Shown here: in pieces, positions 1 to 49,658 of the stretch
Layout of the letters: each line of letters begins with the position of its first letter
How positions within the stretch are numbered: the stretch's first letter is position 1
Origin: Sutcliffiella horikoshii
GTDB taxonomy: Bacteria > Bacillota > Bacilli > Bacillales > Bacillaceae_I
Assembly: GCF_019931755.1 (NCBI RefSeq)
Contig: NZ_CP082918.1
Location: 2,026,001-2,090,000, forward strand
Length of the DNA stretch: 64,000 bases
Direction of reading: 5' to 3'
The notes under the pieces: model-generated
What the model was told of the DNA's origin: nothing
What the model saw: only the letters and a program-made list of their open reading frames with translations
The model's database searches: none
Translations under genes and position numbers: made by a program

Positions 1-616
1 TAAGATCATGGATAAATTCTATACAGGTTCAGAAAATGTAAAAGCCACTTTGCATCAAGTAACCAGCTACATCCATGCTTTCCATGAGGCCAATCCATTA
101 AAAGCAGGAGTGGCAAAGGCTGAAATACTTTCAAACTTTTCAAATTCGGTACCTAAGAATTTAGTAGAACATGTCATTCAATCACTACAAGACGACGGAA
201 AAATAATGCGAGATGAAAGTTTATTATATGATGCCAGCTTTGAACCGCATTATCCTGTTTCTTGGAAAAAAAGAATGGAACAGGTTGTGTCTGGTATTGA
301 GGGGGACGGTCTTACTCCTAAACCTTTTGAGCAGTATGGACGAGAGACGGGACTTCCTGAAAAAGAACTGCGTGATCTTCAGCATTATTTAATCAGGCAG
401 GAAAAAGTATACGTGTTGGATGATAAGCATTTAGTCAGTGTAAAAATCATAGAAAGTTCTGTCTCTAAACTAAAGAGGAAGTATTCACAGGAATTAGAGC
501 TGAGCGGAGTAAAAGAGGAACTCGGATTATCCAGAAAGTATTTGATCCCTTATATGGAATTGCTAGATGCCTTACAGATTACGAAAAGAGAAGATTCTGT
601 TCGGTATTGGAGATAA
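1..616 (+). CDS. selB: SelB, selenocysteine-specific elongation factor, C-terminal part (5' end outside window)
   Basis: This is the C-terminal winged-helix region of SelB, the GTPase that carries Sec-tRNA to the ribosome and recognises the SECIS hairpin in selenoprotein mRNAs. The frame is open from base 2 with no stop upstream, so the gene continues beyond the window; the ATG at base 8 is internal. Residues around HEANPLKAGVAKAEI match the conserved HPLR-G-xKEEL start of a SelB winged helix, and the remaining 200 residues fit further wings. The GTPase domains are not visible. The gene converges on selD, with one hairpin terminator between them. Identification rests on this motif and on the neighbouring selD and selA. 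Confidence 0.87.
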   Translation, partial: KIMDKFYTGSENVKATLHQVTSYIHAFHEANPLKAGVAKAEILSNFSNSVPKNLVEHVIQSLQDDGKIMRDESLLYDASFEPHYPVSWKKRMEQVVSGIEGDGLTPKPFEQYGRETGLPEKELRDLQHYLIRQEKVYVLDDKHLVSVKIIESSVSKLKRKYSQELELSGVKEELGLSRKYLIPYMELLDALQITKREDSVRYWR

Positions 617-658
617 TGAAAACGGTGCTACTGAAAGTAATCAGTTGGCACCGTTTTT
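617..658. terminator. Bidirectional terminator between selB and selD
   Basis: A hairpin pairs AAACGGTGC..CTGA with TCAG..GGCACCGTTT and is followed by a T run on the plus strand. The last codons of selD lie inside the right arm. Confidence 0.75.
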
Positions 659-1705
659 GCTTACATAAATGCATTTTTCTCTTTTTTCTGTGACAGATCC
701 AATGACAGCAGCATGCACATTTCTTTCTTTTAGCTTGCTTACATACTGATACGCTTCCGTTTTAGGCATGCTGACTAGCATGCCTCCAGATGTGATAGCG
801 TCACACAACACCAGCTGCTCATGAAAAGAGATGGAATCAGGGTAATAAACCTCATTCTCTAACCATTGATGGTTGGACTTAGATCCACCAGGCACTACGC
901 CTGCTTCTGCCAACTCATATGTTCCCGATAAAACAGGAACTTTCTTCAGGTCGATATGTAAGCTTACGCCGCTTCCACGTGCGATTTCACTTGCATGTCC
1001 GAGCAGTCCAAAACCAGTAACGTCTGTAACGGCATTCGGATTGTATTCTTTCAATGTTTCAGCTGCATGTTTGTTTAAGGAAGCCATTGTCTGCGTTACG
1101 AGAGTAATTTGTTCATCTGTAGCTTTTCCTCGTTTTATGGCGGTAGTGATGATCCCTACCCCAATAGGCTTTGTTAATACAAGTGCATCCCCAGTGCGAG
1201 CACCAATATTTTTCCATATATGATTTGGATGGGCAAACCCTGTAACAGATAAGCCGAATTTAGGTTCCTGGTCATCAATGGAATGTCCACCGACAATGAC
1301 TGCTCCTGCTTCCTTCACTTTATCCAACGCCCCTGAAAGGATAGAGTGGAGAATTTCGGGTCCCAATTTCTTTATTGGATATCCGACAATATTTAGTGCT
1401 GTTTTTGGGGTGCCACCCATTGCATAAACGTCACTCAATGCATTCGCAGCAGCTATTTGTCCAAACATGTAAGGGTCATCCACAACTGGTGTAAAATAAT
1501 CGAGCGTCTGGATCATCGCAATGTCATCAGTGATTTTATATACTCCGGCATCATCAGAAGTGCTAAAGCCTACTAACAAATTAGGATCGTGGTTATTCGC
1601 AGGTAAATCACGCAAAACTTGCGCGAGGTCGCTAGGACCAAGTTTGCAGCCTCAACCAGCTTTCGTAGATAGTGATGTTAAACGAATTTTTTCGTGTTCA
1701 CTCAT
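641..1705 (-). CDS. selD: Selenophosphate synthase SelD, itself a selenoprotein (in-frame UGA = Sec18)
   Basis: SelD makes selenophosphate from selenide and ATP, the selenium donor for Sec-tRNA synthesis. The long open frame begins only near 1615, but the same frame continues upstream through one TGA (1652-1654) to an ATG at 1705. That ATG has a strong AGGAGGTG site five bases upstream. The upstream part reads MSEHEKIRLTSLSTKAG-U-GCKLGPSDLAQVL, which contains the SelD glycine-rich active-site loop with U where other SelD proteins have Cys or Sec. The full protein is 354 residues, normal for SelD. DVTGFGLLGH and GGMLVS are further family motifs. A hairpin follows the TGA. Sec-containing SelD proteins are known in other bacteria. 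Confidence 0.93.
1611..1654 (-). promoter_or_regulatory. Candidate bacterial SECIS hairpin of selD
   Basis: Directly after the UGA (1652-1654, minus strand), GCAAACTT (1647-1640) pairs with AAGTTTTGC (1620-1612), leaving one bulged base. An inner helix GGTC/GACC closes a five-base apical loop CTAGC (1635-1631). Placement and size fit a bSECIS, which SelB reads with its C-terminal wings. The fold was drawn by eye. Confidence 0.7.
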
Positions 1706-1805: not shown

Positions 1806-1870
1806 AATATTAATGACTGGGAAGGAATATCTTGGTCATCGTAGTAAAAACTTGCATAGGAGGAAAACTC

Positions 1871-2110
1871 ATGAGCAATTTCAAAGTATCTATCGAATTT
1901 TGCATGCAGTGAAACTACGCGCCAAAAGCCGCGAGTTTCGCGGAATTACTATTCAGCCACTTCCGAACGGATATCTCCTCTATGGAGCTGATCCCAAGCT
2001 CCGGTGGAAAATTTGAAGTGACGGTAAATGGAGAAACAATCTTTTCTAAAAAAGAAACCGGTGTGTTTCCGAAAGCGGAAGACATCATTGCTCAATTGGA
2101 AGGCAAGTAA
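1871..2110 (+). CDS. SelW/Rdx-family selenoprotein (CMQU motif, UGA = Sec14)
   Basis: A 79-residue reading frame starts at ATG 1871 after an AGGAGG site, crosses one TGA at 1910-1912 and ends at TAA 2108-2110. It begins MSNFKVSIEFCMQ-U-NYAPKAASF, giving the CxxU redox motif in the first loop after a beta strand. It continues with a helix, SGGKFEVTVNGETIFSKK and a final FPKAEDIIAQL. This is the thioredoxin-like SelW/SelT/SelH (Rdx) layout and length. The codons after the TGA stay in one frame for 65 residues of family-like sequence. A hairpin immediately follows the TGA. The physiological role of bacterial SelW-like proteins is not settled; a thiol redox role is inferred. It lies between selD and selA. 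Confidence 0.9.
1910..1939 (+). promoter_or_regulatory. Candidate bacterial SECIS hairpin of the SelW-like gene
   Basis: GAAACT (1911-1916) pairs perfectly with AGTTTC (1934-1939), and CGCG (1918-1921) with CGCG (1930-1933). A single bulged A (1917) and an eight-base loop complete the fold. The hairpin begins inside the UGA codon, as expected of a bSECIS. Confidence 0.8.
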
Positions 2111-2188: not shown

Positions 2189-3586
2189 ATGAAAGAATTA
2201 CTTCGAAGCATTCCCCCTATACATGAACTGCAAAATCAACCTACATTTATGCAATTAAGCAAAAAGTATGATGTTGATAAAACAGTTATGACCTCCATTT
2301 TGAGAATGGCAATAGAGGGGCTTAGAAATCAAATTATTGCGGGTGATCTAGAGGGTTCGGATATCACTTCTAGAATATGGAATCAAATGGAACTGATGTT
2401 GAATAGAAAAAATAAGTCACGACTGCTGCCAGTTATCAATGCAACGGGGACGATCTTACATACAAATCTTGGACGCACAAGGTTAAGTAGAGACGCAATT
2501 AACCGAGTTGTTGAAGTGGCTTCTAACTATTCCAATTTAGAATTTGATATTGATTCAGGTAAGCGGGGCTCAAGGCATGATATTGTCGAGGATTTAATTA
2601 AAGAGGTAACTGGTGCGGAAGCTGCCATGGTAGTAAATAATAACGCGGCAGCAGTGTTTTTCATCTTGAATGCGTTTGGCAAAGGGAAAGAAGTAATTGT
2701 TTCAAGAGGCCAGCTTGTGGAGATTGGAGGTTCTTTTCGAATCAGCTCCATTATGGAAGAGAGCGGTGCGAAGCTCGTGGAGGTTGGGACCACAAACAAA
2801 ACGCATCTGAAAGATTATAAGGAAGCTCTTTCAGATGATACCTCCATGGTGTTAAAAGTACATACAAGCAATTTTAAAATAGTTGGTTTTACTGAGGCCG
2901 TATCTACACAACAACTGGTTGATTTAAAGCAGTTTCAAGAAGATTTGATTGTCTACGAAGATCTGGGCAGCGGAGTCCTTTTTGATTTCACGGAAGCAGG
3001 CATAGGAGAGGAACCAGTTGTACAAAAAGTGTTAGAAACTGGTGTAGACATCGTATCGTTTAGCGGTGATAAACTGTTGGGTGGACCACAAGCAGGTATC
3101 ATAGCCGGAAAAAAGCAATATATCGATAAGTTAAAAAAGCATCAGCTTGCCAGGGTGCTTCGAGTGGATAAAATGAGTTTTGCTGCGCTAGAAGGTACAT
3201 TACAAGCTTATGCAAACAAAAAAGCAAAAGACATTCCAGCGGTTAGAGATATGTTACTATCCATGGAAGAGGTTAGAGAAAGAGCCATGGTATTCCTTGA
3301 TACCGTGACCTCTTTGAATTTGTTTCATTGGGAGCTTGTAGAAGTCGAGTCAATGGTTGGCGGTGGAACGATGCCAGAAGTGAAAATACCTTCCATTGCA
3401 GTTAGGGTGCACACCGATACTCTTTCATCACAGACGTTGGCAGATGAACTAAGAAAAGGAACCCCAAGTGTGGTGGTCCGTCTCCAAGATCAGCACGTGA
3501 TGTTGGATTTCCGGACTATCACACAAGGGGAGATACCTAAAATTGTGGAAGCTTTTCGTAAAATCGAGCTTACATATCGTGACTAG
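2189..3586 (+). CDS. selA: L-seryl-tRNA(Sec) selenium transferase SelA
   Basis: SelA is the PLP enzyme that converts Ser-tRNA(Sec) to Sec-tRNA(Sec) using selenophosphate from SelD. At 465 residues it has normal family length. [19 protein letters not shown] is the typical N-terminal block, and [12 protein letters not shown] carries the PLP lysine at position 295, the same number as in E. coli SelA. The ATG follows AAAGGTG. It is transcribed in the same direction as the SelW-like gene, with a terminator and a TATAAT box between them, so it may have its own promoter. Its last 17 bases overlap the end of sspP on the other strand. Confidence 0.95.
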
Positions 3587-3848: not shown

Positions 3849-4115
3849 ATGCCATATCATAAAGATAAACAGCAAGCTTTCCAAGCAGCACAACAAGGAA
3901 CAGAACAAGCAAGAGATGTTTACGAAGCGATTGTCAGAAATGATCCAAACTATGGGCACGATTTCAAGAGATTAGAAAATGAAGTGAACGAAGCAATCGA
4001 ACAGATCAACAACGCACTAGAAGTAGCTTCTGAAACACAACGACCGCAATTGATGCAATTTCAGGCAGATCTACAACGCCTGATGCAGCAAGGTGAAGGG
4101 AATACGTTGGAGTAG
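3849..4115 (+). CDS. Small helical protein, DUF2524/YtzC-like
   Basis: An 88-residue, charged, almost wholly helical protein without Cys or membrane segments. Heptad-like stretches (residues 40-80, NEVNEAIEQINNALEVASE then QRPQLMQFQADLQRL) suggest a coiled coil. The QRPQL segment resembles the QREQL core of DUF2524 proteins of Bacillus, whose function is unknown. The ATG follows AAAGGAGCG by about seven bases. It stands alone between sspP and sspO and has its own terminator. The family assignment is tentative. Confidence 0.65.
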   Translation: MPYHKDKQQAFQAAQQGTEQARDVYEAIVRNDPNYGHDFKRLENEVNEAIEQINNALEVASETQRPQLMQFQADLQRLMQQGEGNTLE

Positions 4116-4136
4116 AGAGTTGATTCGTTAGGTTAG

Positions 4137-4184
4137 GCCAATCTTGAACCGGTAATTTAGGTTTTAGGTTGGCTTTTGGCTTTT
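4137..4184 (+). terminator. Terminator after the DUF2524-like gene
   Basis: GCCAA..GAACC pairs with GGTTT..TTGGC around an A/T-rich loop, followed by TTTT and then a seven-T run. Confidence 0.6.
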
Positions 4185-4202
4185 TTTCAAATTGATTGTG
4201 TT

Positions 4203-4241
4203 GGCAAAAAAAAATCAACCCCAACAAATTGGAGTTGATTT
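4203..4241 (-). terminator. Terminator of sspO
   Basis: Read on the minus strand, AAATCAACTCC pairs with GGGGTTGATTT and a long T run follows, just past the sspO stop. Confidence 0.75.
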
Positions 4242-12010: not shown

Positions 12011-13201
12011 TTAGTTTCTTAATTCATCATCTTTTAACCATTGGTACATATGTTTCATCATTTCCTCGTTTTTAGCCTCTGCCTGAGGAAAGCCATACGA
12101 TGCCGCGTCCTTTAATGGAACAACATGATATTTAGTAGGATTAATCTGTGAAACATAAGTAGGGATGAAATTGTCCACTTTAATATCAATTTTGCTTTCC
12201 TGTCCATCCATGTTTTTTTCCACATGGAGTTGAAGGATGCCACCGATATCTTTATAGTCGTCTTTTTGCCCAGAGAGGAAATTACCTAAAGAATAGACAA
12301 CAAACATCTTTCCGCCATCAGGCCTGTCCATGAACTTCATTGGTTGCAATACATGTGGGTGATGCCCGATCACAATGTCGACACCAGTTTCAGCCAGGAA
12401 GTCTGCAAGTTCTTCCTGTTCTGAATTTGGAAAAAGGATATATTCTACCCCCCAGTGCATCGCAACTACAACGACATCTGAATTTTGCTTGGCTTCTTGA
12501 ACGTCTTTTTTTATCGCTTCACGATCAATCAAGTTTACAAAAAATTCTTTCCCTTCCGGAACGGGAATACCGTTTGTTCCGTATGTGTAAGACAAGAATG
12601 AGAACTCAATGCCATTCTTTGATATGGTTCGTAATTTTGCTTTATCTTCATTGCTCTTATACCCACCTACATACTCCATTCCAATGGTTTCATAATGGTT
12701 AATGGCATTCATGATCGCCTTTTCTCCACGGTCCAATGTATGGTTATTGGCGATGCTGACAATATCAACGCCGGCTTCCTGAAGGGCATCAGCCACTTCA
12801 AATGGACTGTTAAAGCTAGGATAGTTGGATAATCCTATTTCAGTCCCCCCGATGATGGTCTCTTGATTTGCAATGGAAATATCGGTTTCAAGCAGGTAGG
12901 ATTTCACCTTATTTAGCATTGGATTGAAATCATAGCTGCTTTCCCCTGTTTTCGCTGCATTATAAACCGTGCTATGGATAAGTAAATCCCCAACAGCGGA
13001 AATGGTTGCTTCTGTTCGGAAGCCCTTTTCGGTTTTTAATTCTTTTGTTAACTTATGAAGCTTCACTGGATTTGCAACAAGTTCTTCTTGACTATCACTC
13101 CCATTAAAACTGCTGAAATGTTTAAAGGACAATACAGAAAAAACGGTTCCCAATAGCATAATAATTAAAATCGGGAGAAGGTATTTAAATTTTTTATTCA
13201 T
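12011..13201 (-). CDS. CapA-family metallophosphatase-like exported protein
   Basis: A 396-residue protein with an N-terminal membrane anchor (residues 5-25) and a PGA_cap/CapA domain. The metal-binding motifs are AVGDLLIH, NQETIIGG, SIANNHTLDRG and GHHPHVLQ, in the order of the calcineurin-like CapA fold. CapA (PgsA) takes part in poly-gamma-glutamate export, but here there is no capB or capC nearby, so a role in a PGA operon is not supported. Single CapA proteins are common in Bacillus, with unknown roles in wall-polymer metabolism. ATG 13201 follows AAGGGGTT; the longer upstream frame is unlikely. Confidence 0.87.
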   Translation of the reverse strand: MNKKFKYLLPILIIMLLGTVFSVLSFKHFSSFNGSDSQEELVANPVKLHKLTKELKTEKGFRTEATISAVGDLLIHSTVYNAAKTGESSYDFNPMLNKVKSYLLETDISIANQETIIGGTEIGLSNYPSFNSPFEVADALQEAGVDIVSIANNHTLDRGEKAIMNAINHYETIGMEYVGGYKSNEDKAKLRTISKNGIEFSFLSYTYGTNGIPVPEGKEFFVNLIDREAIKKDVQEAKQNSDVVVVAMHWGVEYILFPNSEQEELADFLAETGVDIVIGHHPHVLQPMKFMDRPDGGKMFVVYSLGNFLSGQKDDYKDIGGILQLHVEKNMDGQESKIDIKVDNFIPTYVSQINPTKYHVVPLKDAASYGFPQAEAKNEEMMKHMYQWLKDDELRN

Positions 13202-13354
13202 TGTAATTAACCCCTTATATCTTTTTCTTCCTCCACCATATAACATAGTTTTTGCAAAATTCATCGTAATATGTCGAATGTTCAAAAAATTAAAGGGTTT
13301 TTGTTTTGTATCTCGAAATAGTAAAAGGATACATGTAAAAAGGGGGAAATCAAT

Positions 13355-15133
13355 TTGCTTACGTTCAAAAAACCTGAAGTAGAACAATTCTTTAAAGTTT
13401 TTAATATTGAAGATTTTACATTGAGTCCTGATGAAAAACAGTTAGTGTACAGTACGAATCTAACGGGTCATTATAATGTATGGGCAATGGATCTGCCGAA
13501 TCAGTACCCATACCCACTTACATTCAATGACCAAAGTTGTCATGGGTTAAAGTACGAACCAAATGGAAAATACATATTAGCAAGCTTTGATCAGGATGGA
13601 AATGAGCTGGCGCAACTTTATGCACTGCCAAGTCGAGGCGGGGAATTGCAGGATGTGAGAGTGGATAACGATCACCGTCATATGAACCCGAGTTTCTCCA
13701 AGGACGGACAACGTATATACTATACGAGCACAAAAGGTAACCAAACCTATTTAAATTGTTATTGTTACGACTTGGAGACAAAAGAGGAAAAGTTATTGGT
13801 GGATGGGACAGATGCGTCAACATACTTAATAGCTGTCTCAGAAGATGAAGAAAGTTTCATTACTTTAAGACATTATGCCAACACTCATACACAGGCATTT
13901 TTACATCAAGGAGGAACAACAACTAAATTAACTCCGGAAACAGACAGTCAGCATACAGTTGACAGCGCAATATTTACGGAATCCAACTCCATTTATCTTG
14001 TTACTGATTATGAGGATGATAACGGATACCTCGCGCATTTTGATCTTGAAACCAAGAAGTTTACAAAAGTATCAGATAGTGAGATGCATTTTAATAACAT
14101 GTATTTAGACAAGACAGGAAACAAGTTATACCTCGTATCAGCCAAAGGGGTGGAGGATAAACTCTTTACCTATTGTTTGGAGAAAAAAGTTTGGAATGAA
14201 GTAGATATACCAGTTTCCATTATCGAAAAAGTGGTAATTAGTAAAAGTGGATCGGTCTATTTACTAGGAAAAACTGCTTCAAAGCCAGCAAACATATTTA
14301 AAAAGGAAACTGAAGGTTGGATTCCTTTAACAAATAATCGTGTGCCGGCAGTTGCGGATGAAGATCTTTGTGAACCTGAAATACTTTCTTATCCATCCTT
14401 TGATGGATTAGAGATTGAAGCTTTATTCTTTAAGGCAAAAGAAGAGGTTTCAAATGGACATGTAATCTTATGGCCGCATGGTGGTCCCCAGGCATCTGAA
14501 CGAAAATTCTTCCGCTCCTATTTCCAATTCCTTGTTAATCGCGGATTTAGTATTTTTGCACCGAATTTCCGAGGATCATCCAATTATGGACTAACTTATA
14601 TGAAAATGGTAGAGGGAGACTGGGGTCATGGACCTCGGCTAGATAACATCCATGGTTTAGAATGGATAATCGAAAAAGGATATGCAGAAAGAGAAAAAAT
14701 ATTCCTTATGGGCGGCAGCTATGGTGGTTACATGGCGTTACTTCTCCATGGGCGTCATCCTGAATATTTCAAAGCAGTCATTGATATATTTGGTGTCAGT
14801 AACTTGTTTTCCTTCATTGATTCTGTGCCAGAACATTGGAAACCGATCATGAAACAATGGGTTGGAGATCCGGTAGAGGATAAAGAACGACTGACAATCG
14901 ATTCTCCAATCACTTACCTTGATACAATGACAAAACCAATGTTAATTATCCAAGGTGCGAACGATCCGCGAGTGGTCAAGAAAGAATCCGATCAGATTGT
15001 GGATGCTTTAAAAGAAAAAGGCAGAGAAGTGGAATATCTTGTTCTTGATGATGAAGGGCATGGCTTCTCTAAGAAGGAAAATGAAATAAAAGTATTCAGG
15101 TCAATCTTGAATTTTTTAGAAAAACACCTTTAA
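13355..15133 (+). CDS. S9 family serine peptidase (prolyl oligopeptidase type, YuxL-like)
   Basis: A 592-residue cytoplasmic peptidase: residues 10-330 form a beta-propeller with WD40-like blades, and the rest is an alpha/beta hydrolase domain. The triad is S455 in GGSYGGY, D537 in QGANDPRV and H569 in DDEGHGF. GPQASERKFFRSYFQFLVNRG and FRGSSNYG are typical S9C (acylaminoacyl peptidase) motifs. The start is TTG 13355 after AAAAGGGGGAAA; no ATG fits. There is no signal peptide. It is divergent from the capA-like gene with a shared 150-base promoter region. Confidence 0.92.
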   Translation: MLTFKKPEVEQFFKVFNIEDFTLSPDEKQLVYSTNLTGHYNVWAMDLPNQYPYPLTFNDQSCHGLKYEPNGKYILASFDQDGNELAQLYALPSRGGELQDVRVDNDHRHMNPSFSKDGQRIYYTSTKGNQTYLNCYCYDLETKEEKLLVDGTDASTYLIAVSEDEESFITLRHYANTHTQAFLHQGGTTTKLTPETDSQHTVDSAIFTESNSIYLVTDYEDDNGYLAHFDLETKKFTKVSDSEMHFNNMYLDKTGNKLYLVSAKGVEDKLFTYCLEKKVWNEVDIPVSIIEKVVISKSGSVYLLGKTASKPANIFKKETEGWIPLTNNRVPAVADEDLCEPEILSYPSFDGLEIEALFFKAKEEVSNGHVILWPHGGPQASERKFFRSYFQFLVNRGFSIFAPNFRGSSNYGLTYMKMVEGDWGHGPRLDNIHGLEWIIEKGYAEREKIFLMGGSYGGYMALLLHGRHPEYFKAVIDIFGVSNLFSFIDSVPEHWKPIMKQWVGDPVEDKERLTIDSPITYLDTMTKPMLIIQGANDPRVVKKESDQIVDALKEKGREVEYLVLDDEGHGFSKKENEIKVFRSILNFLEKHL

Positions 15134-49465: not shown

Positions 49466-49658
49466 AAGGAACAAGCCACAACTGCCGTAACTTAGTATAA
49501 GAAAGTTTTAAACCACCACTCCTGAAAGTGGGTGTTCGCAAAAACATTCCTGTCGTCCTCTATCCATGGAGGCATGACATTCCTGCTTTTATATAAAACT
49601 CCCTAGCTAAGTATAAAGGTTAAAACTTTGTTATGGTTACGTACATCGTAGCTTGTTT
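49466..49658 (-). ncRNA. Structured RNA, candidate 6S RNA (SsrS/6S-2-like)
   Basis: A gene-free stretch with its own promoter and a terminator can fold over its whole length of about 190 bases. The 5' end AACAAGC..AC pairs with the 3' end GT..GCTTGTT (13 pairs including G-U), then a 3x3 loop, then CGTAAC with GTTACG. An asymmetric open region follows (about 6 and 10 bases). Then AAAGTTTTAACC pairs with GGTTTAAAACTTT, and the far end holds two small hairpins (CCTC/GAGG and CCACT/AGTGG). A long closing stem, a central bubble and a terminal arm are the 6S RNA plan, which mimics an open promoter to bind RNA polymerase. B. subtilis 6S-2 also lies near desKR. The fold was drawn by eye; identity is not proved. 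Confidence 0.5.

Follow-up and report, generated by a model that had tools for sequence, protein, structure and literature searches.

A SelW-like gene with an in-frame TGA in Sutcliffiella horikoshii: its family, its probable SECIS hairpin and its wide distribution across the order

A short gene between selD and selA in Sutcliffiella horikoshii (contig NZ_CP082918.1) carries a TGA at its fourteenth codon. Is this TGA an ordinary stop, or is it read as selenocysteine (Sec), and if so, which RNA hairpin acts as the SECIS and which proteins keep the Sec trait in the lineage? We addressed these questions in a 64,000-nucleotide stretch of the contig (hereafter the window, whose numbering is used throughout) and in related genomes. 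The locus is arranged as follows.

1 to 616, forward strand: 3' part of selB, the Sec-specific elongation factor, with winged-helix domains (PF09107 and PF09106); the gene starts upstream of the window
641 to 1705, reverse strand: selD, selenide water dikinase (TIGR00476, 417 bits), with an in-frame TGA (context GUGCK) at 1654 to 1652
1858 to 1863, forward strand: ribosome-binding site AGGAGG, read in the sequence, with a 7-nt spacer to the selW ATG
1871 to 2110, forward strand: selW-like gene of 79 codons with CxxU at codons 11 to 14, identified from its frame, profile matches, relatives and dN/dS
1910 to 1912, forward strand: in-frame TGA of selW, the putative selenocysteine codon
2107 to 2138, forward strand: intrinsic-terminator-like hairpin and T-run 3' of selW, from a terminator-pattern search
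2189 to 3586, forward strand: selA, L-seryl-tRNA(Sec) selenium transferase (TIGR00474, 562.8 bits; cut-off 267.9)

Reading frame and protein family

The selW frame runs from an ATG at 1871 to a TAA at 2108-2110 and encodes a product of 79 residues. Its single in-frame TGA is codon 14, in the motif CMQU (C11-x-x-U14). The initial annotation of this DNA had described exactly this: a 79-codon frame with a strong ribosome-binding site, one in-frame TGA and a CxxU motif. It had also anticipated that standard gene calling would miss the gene, and the gene is indeed mis-called: among table-11 ORFs of at least 30 amino acids, the frame is represented only by a 42-amino-acid tail. Downstream, three nested terminator-like matches lie at 2107-2138; a fourth coincides with the hairpin at 1929-1943 discussed below (four such matches were found in 1600-2300, where shuffles gave 0.5 on average). 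A promoter-like site at 1777-1805 is no more than chance would give (1 found for 1.5 expected).

The split made by table-11 gene calling is what one would see if the TGA were an ordinary stop, leaving either a CxxC gene in decay or a short peptide of 13 residues with a non-coding remnant behind it. Against this, the codons 3' of the TGA are under purifying selection, with a dN/dS of 0.05-0.09 in 12 of 13 relatives (dS is saturated in the remaining one). The single-TGA frame is present in all 13 close relatives compared, the TGA is retained across the order as well as in genomes further removed, and selW is strictly tied to selA, as detailed below. We therefore give an ordinary stop almost no credence. 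The gene is genuine and encodes a small redox-type protein, and its mid-gene stop codon is very probably read as selenocysteine.

The product belongs to the Rdx family, as the initial annotation had proposed in assigning it to SelW/Rdx. A profile search matched PF10262 (Rdx) with 81.3 bits (E 6.1e-23; gathering score 22.6), and this was the only Pfam family found. TIGR02174, the CXXU_selWTH model, was matched with 67.9 bits against a cut-off of 34.2. The Campylobacter SelTWH equivalog NF041051 scored narrowly below its cut-off (85.6 bits versus 88), a point against the reading favored here. The CxxU motif near the N-terminus (C11-x-x-U14) corresponds to the CxxC/CxxU redox motif of Rdx/SelW-like proteins, and alignment with the solved relatives 2fa8, 3dex and 2p0g places the Sec of SelW at the second Cys of CxxC. 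CxxC members of the Rdx family are regarded as small thiol redox proteins. The selW product is, by analogy, most likely a small redox protein of the selenol/thiol type.

The codon at position 14 shows the pattern of a bacterial selenoprotein, with UGA conserved among homologues and aligned to Cys in others. TGA is found in 61 of 62 named loci and TGT in one, and each of the 150 sequences listed from 164 matches in the order has exactly one TGA. This comparative evidence favors Sec14 as originally proposed, and the Cys or Sec homologues that the initial annotation had suggested looking for do exist, Cys forms being also present in the database (P0006, P0034 and P0035). Altogether, 44 database homologues (P0002-P0045) carry W at position 14 in 35 cases and C in 3, while 6 do not reach the position. 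The 35 tryptophans might suggest that TGA is read as Trp in these organisms. However, selD in the same locus also terminates with TGA, as do 6 of the 35 window ORFs of 200 or more codons (a count that includes overlapping frames, not all of them genes), the genome encodes a tRNA-Sec with anticodon tca, and the tie between selW and selA would have no place in such a scheme. Reading as Trp thus has a negligible chance of being correct; the W at the Sec position is probably a database artefact of gene calling with code 4, in which TGA is Trp.

Two mutually exclusive hairpins at the UGA

Two hairpins that cannot form together begin in or after the putative Sec codon.

1911 to 1939, forward strand: longer hairpin, mutually exclusive with the next; real in the genus, without covariation
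1929 to 1943, forward strand: covariation-supported bSECIS hairpin, CCGCGA-GUU-UCGCGG, with a stem of 6, the loop GUU and 22 nt from UGA to loop

The longer hairpin was the SECIS proposed in the initial annotation. The structure itself exists as described, pairing GAAACT at 1911-1916 with AGTTTC at 1934-1939 (six pairs) and CGCG at 1918-1921 with CGCG at 1930-1933 (four pairs); the role assigned to it did not hold up. In its favor, it is the most stable fold at the window selW: the minimum-energy fold of 1905-1950 contains it (-16 kcal/mol, z -2.5, 3 of 200 shuffles equally good), and all ten pairs are present in 10 of 12 genus sequences. Among 59 distinct Bacillales-type sequences, its pairing is no better than in shuffles (88.1% of cells versus 88.4%), and double-change cells are fewer than in shuffles (11 versus 14.2). 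The complete hairpin occurs in 19 of these sequences, and none of the 28 more distant ones has it. The longer hairpin also breaks two rules of a published bSECIS model as given in the available text of PMC13188914: its loop CCAAAAGC lacks a G in the first two positions, and it lies 9 nt from the UGA. Finally, the first bases of its 5' arm belong to the UGA, so that this arm would sit inside the decoding ribosome and the longer hairpin should be unable to form during UGA decoding. We consider it very unlikely that this hairpin is the functional SECIS. As an observation in its own right, it varies little among sequences of the genus and is a competitor of the SECIS.

The short hairpin at 1929-1943 shows covariation. 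The alignment comprised 88 distinct 60-nt sequences from 104 loci: 59 of Bacillales type, 28 more distant ones and one locus, L084, set aside as a Cys case; shuffle and covariation statistics used the 59 Bacillales-type sequences only. The more distant set (L086-L113) includes three loci from Melghirimyces and Marinithermofilum (L086, L087 and L090), the rest belonging to other phyla. Loci L118-L145 come from the 30 order matches with the highest scores, out of 164, and are not a random draw. In the 59 sequences, 99.2% of cells are paired against 92.1% in shuffles, and double-change cells number 31 against 6.8, in shuffles that ignore kinship. No shuffle reached the covariation score, and slid controls, which keep relatedness, paired at most 63.8% of cells. 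One of five covariation measures, further pair types, shows no excess (6 versus 6.2 in shuffles) and counts against the hairpin.

Two of the stem pairs connect wobble positions. The wobble-wobble pair between Ala20 and Ala24 is C-G in 42 sequences and T-A in 17, and the pair between codons 21 and 23 is G-C in 49 and A-T in 10. Both are Watson-Crick in 59 of 59 sequences, against shuffle means of 34.8 and 42.4, respectively. Even where the protein changes (Ala21/Ala24 to Val/Thr in L121, L122 and L136), the pair is retained as T-A. Two further observations weigh against the hairpin: it is weaker in the 28 more distant sequences, with 85.7% of cells paired and the complete stem in 15 of 28, and the minimum-energy fold of free RNA omits it in 11 of 12 genus sequences. 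In fragments that leave out the first 9-16 nt, counted from the first base of the UGA, the short hairpin is the predicted fold in 6 of 6. Removing these nucleotides is what a ribosome positioned on the UGA would do. It also agrees with the bSECIS model in the available text of PMC13188914, which calls for an apical loop of 3-9 nt (here 3), an upper stem of 4-16 bp (here 6), a G among the first two loop positions (here GUU) and a distance of 16-37 nt from the UGA (here 22 nt).

The same kind of hairpin is found in selD, the second gene of the locus with an in-frame TGA.

1610 to 1624, reverse strand: SECIS-type hairpin of selD, GCGCAA-GTT-TTGCGT, with its loop 33 nt 3' of the TGA

The TGA is codon 18 of selD. 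Each of the six stem positions is paired in at least 42 of 43 distinct selD sequences, and both sides of the stem show changes; the energy of the whole stretch 1610-1660 is no better than that of shuffles (z 0.49), which counts against the element. In Cytobacillus eiseniae (L084), TGT stands in place of the TGA of selW (4001-4228 of that locus), and mismatches (A-G and C-T) break two of the six pairs in its hairpin. The selD of the same locus retains both its TGA and a fully paired hairpin. This single case is probably a natural Sec-to-Cys conversion, in which the element was damaged in selW alone.

Sec machinery and distribution of selW

The genome has all the components for Sec decoding. SelW is encoded between selD and selA, with selB (a full ORF of 629 amino acids, at 12727-14616 of locus L002) adjoining, and a tRNA-Sec with anticodon tca (57.5 bits; gathering score 47) lies at 2015805-2015897 of the contig, ~10.1 kb before the window. 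SelA, SelB, SelD and tRNA-Sec are thus all present. Within the window itself, the sole Rfam match at the gathering threshold is a 6S RNA (RF00013, 87.7 bits) at 49469-49657 on the reverse strand.

We consider it highly probable that selB, selD, selW and selA, together with the tRNA-Sec ~10 kb away, form a Sec-decoding cluster, in which UGA14 of selW would be decoded as selenocysteine to give a CxxU site in a 79-residue Rdx-family protein, likely a redox protein. SelB loaded with Sec-tRNA would recognize the hairpin at 1929-1943; with the UGA in the A site, this small element can remain outside the ribosome. The data show the gene with its frame and family, the conserved UGA, the covarying hairpin, the full set of machinery genes and their co-occurrence with selW; Sec insertion itself, the binding of SelB and the redox function of SelW are what we infer.

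The occurrence of selW follows that of the Sec machinery. In a sample of 18 genomes from the family, selW, a strong selA match and an above-cut-off tRNA-Sec occur in the identical 14 genomes; a fifteenth has a selA match of 19 bits only. Counts of tRNA-Sec are restricted to matches above the cut-off, present in 14 of 18 family genomes and in 5 of 14 controls, since at E <=0.001 all 18 and all 14 match. In a sample of 397 genomes from the order, an Rdx match is found in 164, and all of these are among the 180 genomes with selA above its cut-off. This leaves 16 genomes with selA and no selW, and 217 with neither. The number of genomes with selA is the same at E <1e-100, while 280 of 397 match at E <=0.001. 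In a control set of 14 known genomes, Rdx matches are confined to two archaea and are absent from Bacillus subtilis and E. coli.

Gene neighborhoods bear on whether SelW might be chiefly a selenium-status sensor, or a selenium sink, that regulates the sel cluster rather than a redox enzyme. SelW is small, its gene adjoins the machinery genes, and selA sits in the flanking sequence (<=4 kb) at 32 of the 34 loci L052-L085; selD was recovered from the flanks of 28 of these 34 loci, always with TGA at the Sec position. On the other hand, Rdx is the only Pfam family of SelW, and SelW homologues are also encoded at the 28 more distant loci (L086-L113), where no selA or other sel genes were seen within flanks of at most 4 kb using queries from this genome, a search by which they could be missed. 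A primarily regulatory role is improbable, and we continue to favor a redox function.

SelW is widespread in the order. The initial annotation had considered selenoproteins rare in aerobic Bacilli; with selW in 164 of 397 order genomes, counted regardless of oxygen use, this rarity does not hold. The family itself has already been described (PMC1794560, PMC2398784 and PMC9312934, in their available text). The 2006 survey of Zhang et al. (PMC1794560) gives 10 SelW-like proteins in all and 3 Bacillales selenoproteins of any kind; a 2016 survey (PMC5029168) gives SelW-like proteins in 35 organisms. SelW-like selenoproteins were also abundant in marine metagenomes (GOS data, PMC2398784), and a 2022 review (PMC9312934) includes pfam10262 under the name SELENOW-like. 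The 2006 survey further reports few or no Cys homologues of SelW-like proteins in Sec-using organisms, with which the 61 of 62 TGA codons found here agree. SelW-like CxxU selenoproteins are an established bacterial family, counted by these surveys in few organisms and yet present in about two fifths of the sampled genomes of one order. Among the titles listed by a search of open literature, none was dedicated to SelW in Bacillales or to selenocysteine in Sutcliffiella, which is weak evidence of absence.

Retention of the Sec trait and comparison with known systems

Candidates for other users of Sec gave little. Formate dehydrogenase as the main Sec user was rejected: TIGR01591 has no match in this genome, and its four matches in three of the 18 family genomes include none with a stop inside. 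Selenouridine synthase was likewise rejected, being above its cut-off only in G015, 1 of the 18 family genomes (another 12 match weakly, at about 20 bits). Sec forms of the AhpC/TSA and CMD families were sought in this genome, where 14 and 1 matches, respectively, have no internal stop. Given the families searched (formate dehydrogenase, selenouridine synthase, AhpC/TSA and CMD), SelD and SelW may be the whole selenoproteome.

SelD makes the selenium donor. A large part of the order might then keep its Sec apparatus for two selenoproteins, SelD and SelW, both bearing the same kind of hairpin, and with SelW as the end user that maintains the trait. We advance this only tentatively, and it is somewhat doubtful. 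SelW is not indispensable for keeping the Sec trait, since 16 of the 180 genomes with selA do not have it. According to the available text of PMC1794560, every selenoproteome has FdhA or SelD, and where FdhA is lacking, Sec-SelD is present, mostly with the selenouridine trait. The Sec-SelD of this genome fits the FdhA-or-SelD part of that survey. Maintenance of the trait has previously been ascribed to formate dehydrogenase, or to Sec-SelD assisted by selenouridine; the two-member reading would ascribe it to SelW. Culturable relatives could serve to ask what SelW does and how the trait is retained where no Sec formate dehydrogenase is detected.

The window gene truly belongs to a selenoprotein family already known; its SECIS is now corrected, and its distribution in the order is unexpectedly wide. 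What is new is this breadth (164 of 397 sampled genomes of a single order, against the 10 proteins and 35 organisms in the available text of the surveys), a SECIS with covariation support, of a kind common to two genes in one locus, and hints that Sec serves mainly SelD and SelW.

Family membership (PF10262; TIGR02174), CxxU with Sec at the second redox position and a downstream bSECIS are all common to the window selW and other bacterial SelW-like selenoproteins. Rdx proteins of the Cys type whose structures have been solved (2fa8, 3dex, 2p0g, 2obk, 2ojl and 2oka) align within residues 2-72 of SelW; where SelW has CxxU, the chains 2fa8, 3dex and 2p0g have CxxC, with Cys instead of Sec. The SelW of Campylobacter jejuni (L113) shares 43% identity with the window SelW over residues 3-62. 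In the available text of PMC4607533, Epsilonproteobacterial SelW (NF041051) also contains Sec, its genes were likewise missed in annotation, and its SECIS is a common apical hairpin of 5/6 bp a few nucleotides downstream, as here.

A further comparison is with the SECIS of E. coli fdhF. In E. coli K-12, fdhF has GCAGGTCTGC after its TGA, and some selW genes (L062 and L065) carry GCAGGTCTTGC. The host genes are unrelated, and the selW loop lies one codon further from the UGA. The textbook fdhF hairpin, like that of selW, is not returned as the minimum-energy fold by the folding program.
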